Shown here one piece after another: positions 26,523 to 36,630 of a stretch of 64,000 nt of DNA; position 1 is the stretch's first letter, and each line of letters starts with the position of its first letter. This DNA is from Anaerolineaceae bacterium (GTDB taxonomy: Bacteria > Chloroflexota > Anaerolineae > Anaerolineales > Anaerolineaceae). The DNA is taken from NCBI GenBank assembly GCA_016927865.1, contig JAFGLU010000017.1, forward strand, positions 1 through 64,000, read 5' to 3'. Below the pieces are notes generated by a model. It ran no database searches, was not told the DNA's origin, and was given only the letters and a program-made list of their open reading frames with translations. Position numbers and translations under genes: made by a program.

Positions 26523-28031
26523 CTACTGTCCGGTGAAATACTTCTTGCGGATGGTAGTCAGGTCGGCGCTGGTGTGTTCGGATAACAGGGCAAAAAAACC
26601 TGCGGAAGTGGCAATTTTCTCGCGATTCTGGGCGGAATAATCGGCCAGGAAGGCAAAGAAGGCCTCATCTCCGATTAACCCGCGCAGCTCGTGCAGGAAA
26701 ACCGCCCCATTCAAATAAACCGCATCGCGGTAGGCGCGGTAAGCATAAACTTCGTGGCGCGGGTTGTAGATCGTATCGTTCACCGGCCCGCGCGGCTCGT
26801 AGTAATTCACCCGATAAGCCCACCACCAGGGCAATCCCTCGGGGTGCAACGCTTCGTAGTAAATATACTCCGAGTAGGTACATAAGGCTTCGTCCAGCCA
26901 GGGCTCCAGGGCCTGGTCGTTGCCCACCATATCAAACCACCATTGGTGAGCTGTCTCGTGAGCCGCCAAAGAAATCATGAAATCCGCCTGGGTGCCGTTG
27001 GACAGGTTATAAAAGCCATTGCTGAGAAAAAACAAGCCGCTGAATTCCATGCCGTCCATGAAATCGGCTTCCACCACCGCCAACCCAGGGTGAGGGTAAG
27101 GCCCGAACAACCTGGAATACAATTCCAGTGACTCGGCGGTGGTTTGCAAAACGCGCTCCCCCGCCAAAGCATGCAGCGGGAAGGTGTAAGTTGTCACGGT
27201 TGTGCTGCCCACCTGTTTGGATTGCACTACATAGTCAGGGCTGATGGAAAGCACGAATGTCCGCGCAGCCCGCAACTCATACTGGTACCAACCGTTCAGT
27301 TCCTGGCCCGGCACAGAAGCCGCCACCACCAACCCCGCCCGGGCATTGAGCAGTTGAAACTGGACCGTAAAATCGGCGGTTTCATACACTTGATGCTCAC
27401 CATAAGGCGCGGGCTGATGATACAACCAGCCCGAACCGTCAATGTAAGGCGGCACATACGCATACCAGTCCACCAGGTTAATTTGGCGATCTGACCAACC
27501 GAAGACCATTGGGCGCTGGTAAGTGCTTTCGACGCGAGTCGGCAAATACAACCCAAAACTCACCTCGAGGGTGATGGATTGCCCCGGCTGGAGCGGCTCG
27601 GCCAACTCCAGGCGGATCAAACCGGCATCCGTCGTCACATTCTTCAGCGCGGGCCCCGCTGAAGAAGAAACCCCGCCCAACTGAAAATTACCCGGGTACA
27701 TGACTGGCCCGGCGACTAGCGGAATTTCGCCGAGCGGGTCTCTGCCGCGATTGAAATACACAATTTGCTCAACAGCCGAGACCGAGCGGGCAGTATCATC
27801 CAGGGAGGCTGTGATGTTATACAAAGGGGCGGGCAAGTCGGGGAGAGTTGGTGTGGGCGTGAAAACCGGCTCGGGCGGGCCTGGCTCGGGGGTTTGGGTC
27901 GGCGTGGTCTGCGCGGCTGCCGTCGGCGAAGGCTGGGGAGAAGGAGAGGCTTCAGGTAGACGGGTTGGCAGCGCAGAACAGGCGCTCAGCAAGGTCAGAA
28001 CAAGGAATAACAACAGGGTTCGTGCGTACAC
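26523..28031 (-). CDS. M1-family aminopeptidase-like lipoprotein
   Basis: Lipobox LTLLSACSA, zinc motif HETAHQWW, downstream E in LDEALCTYSEY; GTG 28031 proposed as start. Confidence 0.85.
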   Translation of the reverse strand: MYARTLLLFLVLTLLSACSALPTRLPEASPSPQPSPTAAAQTTPTQTPEPGPPEPVFTPTPTLPDLPAPLYNITASLDDTARSVSAVEQIVYFNRGRDPLGEIPLVAGPVMYPGNFQLGGVSSSAGPALKNVTTDAGLIRLELAEPLQPGQSITLEVSFGLYLPTRVESTYQRPMVFGWSDRQINLVDWYAYVPPYIDGSGWLYHQPAPYGEHQVYETADFTVQFQLLNARAGLVVAASVPGQELNGWYQYELRAARTFVLSISPDYVVQSKQVGSTTVTTYTFPLHALAGERVLQTTAESLELYSRLFGPYPHPGLAVVEADFMDGMEFSGLFFLSNGFYNLSNGTQADFMISLAAHETAHQWWFDMVGNDQALEPWLDEALCTYSEYIYYEALHPEGLPWWWAYRVNYYEPRGPVNDTIYNPRHEVYAYRAYRDAVYLNGAVFLHELRGLIGDEAFFAFLADYSAQNREKIATSAGFFALLSEHTSADLTTIRKKYFTGQ

Positions 28032-28090
28032 AAATCCCATTATACACGCTGCCTGAGGCGTTCCGCCAACGGGCGGCGGTCTCCGCGGTT

Positions 28091-29257
28091 CTAGCTTTCC
28101 AGGGACCCCAAAGCCAGGTTCAGGCGCTTGCCGAGTGGCACCAGCGTATTACGCACGGCCTGGTCTGCGGGCAAACCACTGGCATGGATTTCCCGCTGCA
28201 AGCGGGTCAACTCCTGGCTGAGACGGTCTTCGACCAACCCAATCATCGGCACGCACGGGTAGGTGCGCCCTGCCAGAGCCGCCCTGATCTGATCTCCGCG
28301 AATGGGATGCTGAAGTTGCTCCGGATCGGTCAAGACGCTCATTCGCGATGGAAGGAATCCGTGGGCGAACGCCACGCGCATTTGCGTCTCGGGGCGACAC
28401 AGAAAACGCACCAATTCCATTGCAGGCCCCACCTGGCGAGTGTGTTTGAATACAACCAGGTTGGTGCCGCCCAGGTAAGCCCCGCCGGGGGGCACCACGC
28501 AAGCCAGGCGCGGGTCGGCGTCCACACCCATCCACCCGCCGTTGATGGTGACAGGATTGAGCCGGGCATGGAAGTTGTCTTGCTGCTCGCTGCTCATCAC
28601 GCCAGGCGGCATGCGCAATATCATTTCCATATAAGCTCGCACGCCAGCCAGCGCATCGGGGTAATGGAAGGTGACTTCTTTACCGTCCGAAGAGAACAGG
28701 TCGCCGCCGTTTTCCCAGATCCAACTTGAAATGGTATGCAACACCATGTAATTTTCAAAGGGTGGGGCAAAAGGAACCTCGAAGCCGTGCTGCTTGAGGA
28801 TCGTAAAAGATTCGTCAAACTGGCGGCAGGTCTTGAAAGCGGACGCGCCATCCAAACCGGCCGATTCCAGCAGATCGCGCCAGTAAAACAAAACGCGCGT
28901 GTCGACCAGCCACGGAATGGCCCAGATTTGATTCTCGCCGGGGCGCATGCCCGAACGGAGGCTGGCCGCAAGAAACGATTCTGCTCCGCCGAGCTCGGCT
29001 ACTTCTAAGTTGGTGAAAGGTCGCAACGCGTTCATGCCAATCAAGTCACTGGTTTGCGGCACAGCCACCAGGAACACATCGGCGCCGCGACCGTGAACCG
29101 CCGTATCCACCATAACGGTTCGCTGCTCCAACCAGTCGATGAGGCGCACGTTGACTTTGATGCGGGAAATGGATTCGAACTCATCCAACAAGCGGCGCAT
29201 CAGATCCGGGGCGCCGGTACTGATGGGAACCATGACAAAATTCACTTCAGCCGCCAT
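28091..29257 (-). CDS. extracellular solute-binding-protein family homolog lacking a signal peptide
   Basis: SBP family 1-like architecture; starts MAAEVNFVMVPISTG with in-frame TAA 9 nt upstream of ATG. Confidence 0.78.
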   Translation of the reverse strand: MAAEVNFVMVPISTGAPDLMRRLLDEFESISRIKVNVRLIDWLEQRTVMVDTAVHGRGADVFLVAVPQTSDLIGMNALRPFTNLEVAELGGAESFLAASLRSGMRPGENQIWAIPWLVDTRVLFYWRDLLESAGLDGASAFKTCRQFDESFTILKQHGFEVPFAPPFENYMVLHTISSWIWENGGDLFSSDGKEVTFHYPDALAGVRAYMEMILRMPPGVMSSEQQDNFHARLNPVTINGGWMGVDADPRLACVVPPGGAYLGGTNLVVFKHTRQVGPAMELVRFLCRPETQMRVAFAHGFLPSRMSVLTDPEQLQHPIRGDQIRAALAGRTYPCVPMIGLVEDRLSQELTRLQREIHASGLPADQAVRNTLVPLGKRLNLALGSLES

Positions 29258-29336
29258 AAATATTCCTTAGATCATTTGCTACTTTGAATAAGCGGAGATG
29301 ACCGCAATGGCGCGCTGGAGCGAGACCAGCCCGCGT

Positions 29337-30512
29337 TTAGACGGGGGTCTTGCCCGAACCTAAAGCCAAGTTCAAACGCCTGCCCAACGGCTCAATGATC
29401 GAGCGCACCACTTCGGCTGTGTCCTGGTCTGGCCGGTTAGGCAGTTCGCGCTGAACCCGAGCCAGTTCCTGGCTAAATCGGTCTTCCACCAGGCCAATCA
29501 TGGGAACGCAGGGGTAGATGCGCCCGGTTTCAGAGGCTCGGATGCGCGGACCGGTGATTGGATTTGCCAACAATTCCGGGTCGGTCAACAAACTCATCCG
29601 CGAGGGCAAATAACCGTTCGGGAAGCTCAATTTGAGCTGCACATCAGGGCGGGAAAGCCACTTGACCAGTTCAAAAGCGGCGCTTGTGTTTTGAGTGTGC
29701 TTCCAGATGACCAGGTTTGTGCCACCCAGGTACGAACCGCCAGGCACACCCGCGCAACCCGCCACTAAATCTTGCACACCATTGAAAAACCAACCGCCTG
29801 AGATGGTGAAAGCCACCTTCTTTTCATAGAATAAATTGGCCCCAACTGGCCCATAGGCTTGCTGAGGAAGCGGGCGGATCATTTCAAAATATTCAGTAAT
29901 GGCGTTCAACGCCTCGGATTTGTGGAAAGTAACTTCCGATCCATCTGGCTTAATCACATCACCGCCGGTCTCCCAAATATAACTGGAGATAGCATGCAGA
30001 ATTTGATAAGCCTCCGTCGGCACAGCAAAGGGCATGTCCAGGCCTGTCTCCATTAATCTTCGAGCAGTTTCGCTCACATGCTTGCGAGTGCTAAAAGCCG
30101 TGCTCTCATCAATCCCAGCCGCTTGCAGCATTTCGGGCCAGTAGAAGATATAGCGGCAGTCAATCATCCACGGGATGGCCCATGCGCGTTGGGTTTCACT
30201 ATCAATCACAGAGTTCCACGCACTGGGAATGAACGAAGCCGCCCCGCCCAACTCAATAATTTCGATTTGAGAATAGGGCCGCAGCGCATTCATCCCAATC
30301 ATGTCGCTGGTGGAGGGGACAGTGACCGCGGACACATCTGCACCGCGGCTATGTACCGCAATATCCACCAGGCGGGTGCGGTAGCTAACCCAATCAATCA
30401 TCACCAGGTTGACTTTGATGCGTTTTTCAGCCTCGAATTGGTCGAGGATAGGGCGCATCGCCTCTTCCGGGGCGACCGGCATAATCGATAAGGTAATCTC
30501 TCTGTTTGCCAT
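29337..30512 (-). CDS. extracellular solute-binding-protein family homolog lacking a signal peptide (paralog)
   Basis: Aligns over its length to 28091-29257 (GADV..VTVPSTSDMIGMNALRP, YPCVPMIGLVEDR); starts MANREITLSIMPV. Confidence 0.78.
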   Translation of the reverse strand: MANREITLSIMPVAPEEAMRPILDQFEAEKRIKVNLVMIDWVSYRTRLVDIAVHSRGADVSAVTVPSTSDMIGMNALRPYSQIEIIELGGAASFIPSAWNSVIDSETQRAWAIPWMIDCRYIFYWPEMLQAAGIDESTAFSTRKHVSETARRLMETGLDMPFAVPTEAYQILHAISSYIWETGGDVIKPDGSEVTFHKSEALNAITEYFEMIRPLPQQAYGPVGANLFYEKKVAFTISGGWFFNGVQDLVAGCAGVPGGSYLGGTNLVIWKHTQNTSAAFELVKWLSRPDVQLKLSFPNGYLPSRMSLLTDPELLANPITGPRIRASETGRIYPCVPMIGLVEDRFSQELARVQRELPNRPDQDTAEVVRSIIEPLGRRLNLALGSGKTPV

Positions 30513-30656
30513 ACTCTTATTATACTGAATATTTGTTGAATCAAGCGGCCAGTCAAGGTAAATTCTTTGCTGTTTTGTAAGTTTTGCGTTATTTACAAGG
30601 GGATTTTGATTGATTCATCATTTTTTTGTAACAACCAACCCAGAAGTCGACGAGAC

Positions 30657-34152: not shown

Positions 34153-36630
34153 TTACATCTTCCAGGCATGGGCGAAATCGATGGCGGCCCGGATGTTTTC
34201 CCAAGGGATTGTGGATGGCAAAGTACAATCGGCTCCCAAAATAAACCGTTCGGGGGCAATGCGCAGCAGCCCTTCCACCGCAGCCCGCACCACCGACTTG
34301 TTGCCATTCACGATCAGCCCCTGGCGTTCCATGCCGCCCATATAGGGGCGACCAAACAGTTCGGCAACCTTGCGCGGGGTGAGTTGTTTTTCGCCCAAAC
34401 TCAGGCTGCAATTCACCACCTGGCCGGGATAATCCACAAAGGGTGTCAAATCGGTGTAACTGCTGTGATAGTCGCACACATGCAGAATATTGAACGGGCA
34501 GGCGCGATTGATCTCCTCCATGACCGCCAAATCATAGGGCTTGATATATTGAGCGAAAATTGGAGAGCCTTCAAAGCGGTCTGTCTCGCCACCCTGGGTA
34601 GAAGCATAGAATCCATCCGCCCCCACGCGGATACACTCGCGGGCAAAGGTGAGAACGCTTTCAGTCACTGCTTCCATACCCTTCTTGACAGCCTCAGCAT
34701 TCTCCTTTAAGTGCTCCACCAGCAAATCGCTCCCGCCAATATGCCCGGCGCACATGAACGGTGAATACAGCGTAACAATCACCGGAGCCTCGCCTTTAGC
34801 AGCACGCACCAATCCTTCCACAACACGCACCGGTTCCTCGAAGAACTCTTTAGAAAAGGTGTTGACCTTGGCCCAATCCGCCGGCTGGCGGATATCTTCA
34901 CGGTAGGGATACTTGTGCTCGTATTGGATTTTGACAAAATCCATACCGGTGAAGCGGAAGTATTCCATGTGCTTATCAATAGCAGCCTGCCCCCGGTGAA
35001 ACTCGGGAGGAAAGTGCAGAAAAAAAGCGGCGGGAATGCCCGCAGGAGCAGTATCCTTCTCTAGGAAATTAAAAATCAAATCTCGTTTATTCACCAGGCT
35101 CTCCTTTTTCACGCCGACCAACAGCGGAGCCGTGCCCGTTGGCGCCAGGCTAACCCTGTTGCGACCGGCAGCTTTGGCAGCATATAAGGCGTCATCGGCC
35201 CGTTTGATCAGCGCATCCAGGTCGGCGTCAATCTGCGCATCAAAGGTAGCCACCCCCATGCTGATGGTCACCTTCACCGATTCTGAGCCAACGTTGACCT
35301 CCGTCTGTTGGATAGCGCGGTGCAGGCGTTCGGCTGCCTCTTTGGCCCAAAAATAGCCCGTCTGGGGCATAATGATGAGAAATTCTTCGCCGCCATAGCG
35401 CCCCAAAACATCAACTTTGCGAATGGCGGCTTCGCAAGCGCGCACCACCTGACAAAGCACCTTGTCACCGACCGGGTGGCCGTGGCGGTCATTGACCTGC
35501 TTGAAGTGATCAAGATCAAACATGAGCAGCGAGAAGGGTTCCTGGTAGCGGACGGAGCGCTGGAACTGACGCTCGGCCAGGTTGAGTAAATGCCGGCGGT
35601 TATAGACATTGGTCAAACCGTCGGTGATGGCCAGACGCTGTGTTTCTTCGAACAGGCGCGCTTTTTCAATGGCAACCGCGGCCTGGTCGGCAAAAGTTTG
35701 CAGCCGCCCGGCCTGGTCGGGGTGAAAGAATCCCGGCGTGGAGCTTTCCAGGTTCAGTAAGCCAATCACCTTGTCCTGGTTGACGATTGGGGCGCAGGCA
35801 TACGAACGCTCCCAGAACATTTCCGAAGACGGCACCCAATTTTCGTTATTTTCGATGTCTGGCACAATCAGCGGCTGACGGGATTCCACCACTTGCCGCC
35901 AAAAACCAAAAACTTCATAATGCTGTCGGAAAGATAGAATATAGTCCTGCTGACCACGACTTTGATAACCTCGCGCGCGTTTGATCTGCACAAAACCATC
36001 TTCATCCAACAGGGCAATATTGGCAGTATCATGCGGCATGACCCGAGAGAGATTTTCCAGGATTAAATCCAGCACCTCATCGTAATCCAACGTGCTGTTG
36101 ATGGCGGCAATGGTATCACGGAAGGTCTCTGCCAACATGCGCTGTCCACGCTCAGCAGCTTGCAAACGGGTCAACTCTTCCAGGCGCTCAGAAAGCTCCT
36201 GGTTGGTCTGTTCCAGTTGCAGTTGCAGCCGGTGAATGGCCAGGTGGGTTTCCACGCGCGCCACCACCTCTTCGGCGTGGAAGGGCTTGGTCATATAGTC
36301 CACCCCGCCTACCGAAAAAGCCCGTACCTTGTCTTCCACCTCTCCCAAAGCGCTCAAGAAAATAACCGGGATTGCGCGCGTTTGCTCATCAGCCTTCAAA
36401 CGGCGGCAGGTTTCATACCCGTCCATGCCCGGCATATTGATATCCATCAAGATCAAATCAGGTGGGGTTTTGCGCGCCGTCTCAATGGCCAGCTCGCCAT
36501 CCGTCACGGCCCGCGCTCTATACCCGGCCTGAGAAAGCATCTGAGACAATACATGCAGGTTGGCAGGAACATCATCGACAATGAGGATGTTTGCGCGAAC
36601 AGGCGTATTGATGTTGGAAGAAGGATTCAT
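34153..36630 (-). CDS. response regulator REC-GAF-GGDEF (diguanylate cyclase) fused to UroD/MtaA-type methyltransferase domain
   Basis: REC: ILIVDDVPANLHVLSQML...LILMDINMPGMDG; GAF; GGDEF: GRYGGEEF with RKVD I-site; UroD-like region with NILHVCDYHSS...GADCTLPSTIP. Confidence 0.88.
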   Translation of the reverse strand: MNPSSNINTPVRANILIVDDVPANLHVLSQMLSQAGYRARAVTDGELAIETARKTPPDLILMDINMPGMDGYETCRRLKADEQTRAIPVIFLSALGEVEDKVRAFSVGGVDYMTKPFHAEEVVARVETHLAIHRLQLQLEQTNQELSERLEELTRLQAAERGQRMLAETFRDTIAAINSTLDYDEVLDLILENLSRVMPHDTANIALLDEDGFVQIKRARGYQSRGQQDYILSFRQHYEVFGFWRQVVESRQPLIVPDIENNENWVPSSEMFWERSYACAPIVNQDKVIGLLNLESSTPGFFHPDQAGRLQTFADQAAVAIEKARLFEETQRLAITDGLTNVYNRRHLLNLAERQFQRSVRYQEPFSLLMFDLDHFKQVNDRHGHPVGDKVLCQVVRACEAAIRKVDVLGRYGGEEFLIIMPQTGYFWAKEAAERLHRAIQQTEVNVGSESVKVTISMGVATFDAQIDADLDALIKRADDALYAAKAAGRNRVSLAPTGTAPLLVGVKKESLVNKRDLIFNFLEKDTAPAGIPAAFFLHFPPEFHRGQAAIDKHMEYFRFTGMDFVKIQYEHKYPYREDIRQPADWAKVNTFSKEFFEEPVRVVEGLVRAAKGEAPVIVTLYSPFMCAGHIGGSDLLVEHLKENAEAVKKGMEAVTESVLTFARECIRVGADGFYASTQGGETDRFEGSPIFAQYIKPYDLAVMEEINRACPFNILHVCDYHSSYTDLTPFVDYPGQVVNCSLSLGEKQLTPRKVAELFGRPYMGGMERQGLIVNGNKSVVRAAVEGLLRIAPERFILGADCTLPSTIPWENIRAAIDFAHAWKM
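35094..35106 (-). promoter_or_regulatory. internal ribosome binding site and GTG start for UroD-like domain
   Basis: Minus strand AAGGAG(35106-35101)-AGCCTG-GTG(35094) in frame; would give a 313-aa standalone UroD-like protein. Confidence 0.5.

Follow-up and report, generated by a model that had tools for sequence, protein, structure and literature searches.

Solute-binding proteins without signal peptides form a single clade in Anaerolineae and often adjoin glycosidase or phosphorylase genes

Introduction

Export and transport are the usual defining traits of solute-binding proteins (SBPs). Related folds also have intracellular uses: the menaquinone enzymes MqnA and MqnD are enzymes on an SBP scaffold, and LacI-type repressors are cytosolic sugar-binding Venus-flytrap proteins encoded near sugar operons. 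LacI-type repressors resemble the proteins described here in these respects, but they belong to another SBP class and have a fused helix-turn-helix (HTH) domain. In SgrR and DsvR, an HTH is joined to an SBP_bac_5 domain, so that a cytosolic transcription factor contains an SBP fold (PMC13060122). They represent a different SBP family with a fused DNA-binding domain, whereas the proteins described here have none.

The closest structural counterparts are the Thermus thermophilus beta-glycosides-binding protein (PDB 7c63–7c71) and Clostridium thermocellum CbpB (7x0i–7x0n), a cellodextrin-binding protein; both are SBPs of ABC sugar importers. The titles of the T. thermophilus entries name cellobiose, sophorose, gentiobiose and laminaritriose as ligands and W41A, W67A (7c6z/7c70) and E117A as mutants, suggesting that W41, W67 and E117 line the ligand site. 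An initial labeling of this homologue as an alpha-glycoside binder was wrong, since the PDB titles say beta-glycosides.

Here, we describe a clade of SBPs from the Chloroflexota class Anaerolineae that shares the fold of these two proteins (TM to the query 0.84–0.89) at 20–23% identity over the whole chain but, unlike them, has neither a signal peptide nor a dedicated permease. We found no description of cytosolic or signal-less SBPs of this type in the open-access literature searched, and the family is apparently undescribed so far.

Results and discussion

Two adjacent SBP genes lack signal peptides

The starting point was a gene pair in the window, that is, the whole 64-kb stretch of DNA that was analyzed:

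29337–30512, minus strand: P0002, signal-less solute-binding protein of 391 aa, upstream gene of the pair (ORF, Pfam SBP_bac_1/8, AF2, Foldseek)
28091–29257, minus strand: P0001, signal-less solute-binding protein of 388 aa, downstream gene of the pair (ORF, Pfam)
30519–30524, minus strand: TATAAT, ending 6 nt 5' of the P0002 ATG (read from the sequence; a promoter scan instead listed a site at 30556–30528)

P0002 (30512–29337) is transcribed first, and P0001 (29257–28091) lies 79 bp behind it on the same strand. The two proteins share 49% identity over 385 residues (E 1e-136), and both match Pfam SBP_bac_1 and SBP_bac_8 above the Pfam cut-offs (E 3e-16 to 1e-11). An earlier note on this DNA had described them as two full-length SBPs without signal peptides, and hydropathy, the upstream codons and the complete AF2 fold of P0002 all bear this out. 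An in-frame TAA lies 9 nt 5' of the P0001 ATG (four codons before the ATG codon), as that note had reported, as does the TATAAT before P0002, a possible but uncertain −10 box of a leaderless mRNA. The P0002 frame is open for 34 codons upstream, where ATG, GTG, TTG and any hydrophobic stretch are absent. The maximal 12-residue hydropathy within the first 45 aa was 1.56 for P0001 and 1.23 for P0002 versus 3.35 for P0003, a true lipoprotein encoded in the same window. Collectively, hydropathy, a lipobox pattern and upstream stops revealed no signal peptide, lipobox or hidden upstream start in either protein.

The AF2 model of P0002, built with 39 relatives in the alignment, had a mean pLDDT of 94.9 and a pTM of 0.92; a model built without an alignment was uninformative (pLDDT 34.6). 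Residues 4–10 form the first strand, and the fold is complete without any N-terminal extension, hence no N-terminal part is missing. From hydropathy, the lipobox pattern, upstream stops and the AF2 model, we infer that both proteins reside in the cytosol.

The absence of a signal peptide is shared by an entire clade

A first genome scan with the pair's own patterns returned zero relatives, and the sequences in alignment A1 were too diverse to yield a search pattern. The window genome (84.5% complete) contains nine matches to P0002, two of which belong to a single gene split at a contig end, leaving eight genes; thus, eight of its thirteen SBP_bac_1 genes are of the signal-less type and five are others. 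Of 396 genomes sampled from the class Anaerolineae, at least 25 encode signal-less SBPs (a count that leaves out matches proven to be lipoproteins and two unexamined ones), as do 29 of 399 from the order at E 1e-30. A scan of named genomes led to Anaerolineae, Anaerolineales and Thermoflexales metagenome-assembled genomes (MAGs), and MAGs make up most of the sampled genomes. In the phylum sample, matches outside the class were lipoprotein-like: the one whose start was inspected (G663) begins with a signal peptide, and the rest group with lipoproteins in the tree. Within our samples, the signal-less clade occurs in only one Chloroflexota class. In total, 84 unique genes were collected, 79 of them full length.

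In a tree of 68 rows, the 45 signal-less proteins, including P0001 and P0002, form one clade (support 100/99, recovered in 100% of 200 bootstrap trees), with the 23 rows of the lipoprotein group outside. The nearest group consists of Chloroflexota lipoprotein SBPs (L052–L066), which, unlike the clade, carry a lipoprotein signal and a linker; among Chloroflexota lipoprotein SBPs, L015 adjoins a permease gene as read from the sequence. No signal-less row has a lipobox within its first 45 residues. Their N-terminal hydropathy ranges from 0.1 to 1.56, versus 1.8 to 3.3 in all but one of 20 lipobox-bearing lipoproteins. An upstream in-frame stop lies less than 18 codons (within 17) from the start in 31 of 44 signal-less genes, and throughout the clade the protein begins at the fold's first strand. 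The cytosolic location proposed in the earlier note is thus supported, and strengthened by a whole clade that shares the absence of a signal. According to the tree, the signal peptide was lost once, at the origin of the clade, probably from a secreted SBP of the beta-glycoside-binding type. Cysteine content, tried as a marker of compartment, did not differ between signal-less proteins and their secreted relatives, and so lends no support to a reducing compartment.

Might these be ordinary importer SBPs with an unrecognized export route or a mis-called start? In fold and ligand site they match ABC importer SBPs. However, upstream stops and the lack of a hydrophobic N-terminus in 45 of 45 proteins, a fold complete from residue 4 and the single origin of the loss make this reading very improbable, as do the separate importer SBPs found in some clusters. 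The L083 and L099 clusters each encode two ABC permeases and a separate SBP besides the signal-less gene. The separate SBP of L099 starts with a lipoprotein-type sequence, as read by eye, and that of L083 extends past the end of the retrieved sequence, with its signal region out of view. Because the importer in L083 and L099 has its own SBP, the signal-less protein there is an additional component. More generally, importers near other members carry their own SBP in the loci checked, and gene linkage yielded no dedicated permease or ATPase partner for the signal-less SBPs, although an unlinked one may exist.

Tandem arrangement, by contrast with the absence of a signal, is not a general property. 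Conserved signal-less pairs, as the earlier note had envisaged, do recur, at L094 (G387), L141 and L184 (G1021), but the majority of members stand alone. The window, L094 and L184 pairs arose by separate duplications in the tree. No close orthologue of the window pair was found in the 399 genomes of the order, the next best match being 36% identical. The L141 contig (JAGXRB010000028.1) is filed under 'Bacteroidetes bacterium', and its SBPs are nested among Anaerolineales sequences; it is probably misbinned.

Signal-less SBP genes adjoin genes for sugar-processing enzymes

Among the 84 signal-less genes, 46 adjoin a glycosidase or phosphorylase gene that runs in the same direction no more than 250 bp away, and the spacing between SBP and enzyme genes is several times only 7–10 bp. 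The other 38 have no such neighbor, some of them lying at contig ends. Glycosidase/phosphorylase genes account for 52 of 108 direct neighbors, compared with 14 of the 183 genes that these loci contain at a distance of 4 kb or more (odds ratio 11, p 3e-15, a value that is only indicative because related loci are not fully independent). The comparison is conservative, since the control genes were drawn from the same loci. Neighbor genes came from a simple home-made caller, with some starts and small genes unsure, and were classed by phmmer to representatives; most classes were confirmed by Pfam, NCBIfam or PDB. Mutarotase, GlgC and kinases were excluded from the glycosidase count.

By Pfam, the direct neighbors include GH94, GH3, GH13, GH4, GH18, GH5, GH1, GH116, GH43 and GH26 enzymes as well as ROK, PfkB and BadF-type ATPase proteins. 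A large Pfam-less protein beside four members is a GH161 phosphorylase (sequence match to 9h8v/9qqk, E 5e-279), and one member adjoins a sucrose phosphorylase. Loci from a separate scan showed the same enzymes again, plus GH130, GH16 and GH20. Enzyme type tracks the SBP tree, with 15 label changes versus 37 in shuffles (0 of 200 shuffles), where labels derive from the neighbor count and near-copies contribute. The GH13 group includes a copy from the window genome itself (contig C9), 9 bp behind a GH13 gene. In family f12 of the order, GH94 is present in 15 of 15 genomes with the SBP versus 4 of 11 without (p 5e-4, uncorrected for genome size). The folds of the neighboring enzymes are unrelated, an argument against a single conserved contact between proteins. 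By itself, gene neighborhood indicates at most shared expression rather than a mechanism.

Other genes recur next to particular members. In one SBP sub-branch (L131, L132, L136 and L142), the SBP gene follows a TTE1925-type mutarotase gene; three of these four loci also have a GlgC gene after the SBP gene, an indication of glycogen metabolism. A small cupin-like protein (~146 aa, weak match to the WbuC cupin TIGR04366) recurs by or near signal-less SBPs at L141, L144, L092 and L106. On contig C16 of the window genome (L074:248–2591), a signal-less SBP gene is followed after 10 bp by a gene of the URO-D family and then by proA/proB-like genes; a related SBP in G002 also lies beside proA/proB-like genes.

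The ligand site is kept in most members and altered in the window pair

The best Foldseek match of the P0002 model was the T. thermophilus protein (7c6z, TM 0.89). The positions of Trp41, Trp67 and Glu/Asp117 of the T. thermophilus/CbpB type are kept in most clade members; the window pair, by contrast, lacks Trp67. Two codons of P0002 mark the differences:

30312–30314, minus strand: P0002 S67 codon, position of T. thermophilus Trp67; Trp in 75 of 79 members, Gln in P0001
29496–29498, minus strand: P0002 I339 codon, family-conserved Trp site (73 of 79 members); Ile in P0001 too

All three tryptophans (W41, W67 and the 339 site, P0002 numbering) are present in 64 of the 79 signal-less members, and the family looks able to bind beta-glucosides. 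Fewer than two of the three are kept in only four members, and the window pair makes up two of these four: both copies keep W41, have Ser (P0002) or Gln (P0001) at the W67 site and Ile at the 339 site. The earlier note had pointed to two motifs common to the pair. One, YPCVPMIGLVEDR, is exact, while the other needed correction to GADVxxVxVPxTSDxIGMNALRP; the two are exactly the segments altered at the ligand-site tryptophans relative to the rest of the clade. The ligand of the pair has probably changed, judging from the replacement of two of three tryptophans in both copies, the lack of a nearby glycosidase and the lack of a close orthologue.

The conserved residues also bear on whether these proteins could be new enzymes on an SBP scaffold, converting a sugar or sugar phosphate. 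An enzyme would be in keeping with genes that recur in catabolic operons, with a lost transport role and with the strong conservation of E343, R331 and R125. Nevertheless, these three residues are also found in the T. thermophilus transporter SBP, and 37 of the 42 conserved columns are common to secreted relatives. Only S61, G157, F186, W270 and L380 are clade-specific; they do not make up a catalytic set, and we regard catalysis as improbable.

A putative intracellular role in handling imported sugars

The clade members are probably soluble intracellular oligosaccharide receptors, expressed together with the phosphorylases or glycosidases that process an imported sugar. We envisage that a secreted SBP of the beta-glycoside-binding type lost its signal peptide once and came to work in the cytosol, where the Venus-flytrap protein would capture and then hold an imported di- or oligosaccharide. 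The held sugar would be released to the co-encoded enzyme, such that the SBP would serve as an intracellular carrier or buffer. We prefer this mechanism because the SBP genes are closely linked to those of the enzymes, seldom adjoin regulators and show no common partner gene, yet we put its chance at somewhat short of even.

The main rival, a serious though somewhat less likely one, is that the proteins are cytosolic sensors whose sugar-bound closed form touches a LacI, BTAD/AAA, ROK or unlinked partner and thereby switches catabolic operons, as a split version of the LacI or SgrR single chain. SgrR-type factors set a precedent for a cytosolic transcription factor that contains an SBP fold (PMC13060122), and in a sensor, too, ligand specificity would be expected to follow the enzyme of the operon. 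In L110 and L111, LacI-like genes occur a few genes upstream; L083 has a BTAD regulator as its neighbor (by Pfam), sequences similar to this regulator are present at L087 and L089, and L087 also adjoins a ROK protein. Most loci, however, have no regulator adjoining the SBP, and the only regulatory gene next to the window pair is a divergent one for an ECF-type sigma factor. Nor does any member have an HTH or other domain fusion: full-length ORFs of the clade encode the SBP only, and long open frames are plain upstream read-through. Of the roles suggested in the earlier note (sensor, chaperone or buffer), an intracellular one fits the tie of the clade to sugar catabolism, but the data here do not separate these roles from one another.

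The window pair is a tandem duplication within the clade that, after tryptophan replacement, probably binds a different ligand. The family function may not carry over to the pair, as it has no glycosidase neighbor and lacks two conserved tryptophans. More speculatively, and with considerable doubt, importer binding proteins might have been turned into ligand-gated intracellular accessories of glycoside phosphorylases and glycosidases, with a matched receptor in each operon and the window pair switched to a new ligand. That this clade lost export a single time and has since persisted, diversified and entered a range of sugar-catabolic operons suggests that the SBP fold has an intracellular job in sugar metabolism. 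Members adjoining GH94 and GH161 genes, with intact ligand sites, are ready test cases. The clade also gives reason for caution before such genes are labeled 'extracellular' or importer components.

Surroundings of the pair

Consistent with the earlier note, which saw no permease or ATPase nearby, a reading of the ORFs across the whole 64-kb window turned up neither an ABC permease nor an ABC ATPase. There is no glycosidase gene near the pair, and an RNA family scan of the window returned only one tRNA. A gene for an M1 peptidase-like lipoprotein (26523–28040, minus strand, like the pair) begins 50 bp after P0001 and could be co-transcribed with the pair. The ECF-type sigma factor gene lies upstream of the pair. 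Neither neighbor hints at the ligand of the pair.

The earlier note had also raised a possible link with the SBP/kinase genes that lie 4 kb from the pair (36.6–40.8 kb), in which case the pair would be part of an SBP lipoprotein/hybrid kinase/GGDEF system at 34.2–40.8 kb. The short distance (~4 kb) and the common strand speak for such a link. However, the divergent sigma factor gene and a thioredoxin/DsbD-like gene intervene, and P0003 (39505–40791) is a conventional lipoprotein SBP that is distant from the pair (E 0.016, tree branch 2.96) and falls outside the signal-less clade. Moreover, no other clade member was seen directly beside such a system. We therefore set the link aside as the least likely of the readings considered.

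Within this stretch, a single 825-aa ORF (34153–36630, minus strand) joins REC-GAF-GGDEF to a URO-D-like domain. Across 121 genomes of the order, the two halves were found apart, and none of these genomes showed them fused. A protein of G825 is 58% identical to residues 12–494, and the URO-D part has stand-alone counterparts in G002, G844, G779, G801 and G817 (50–57% identity). The ORF could be a real fusion or could reflect a recently lost stop.
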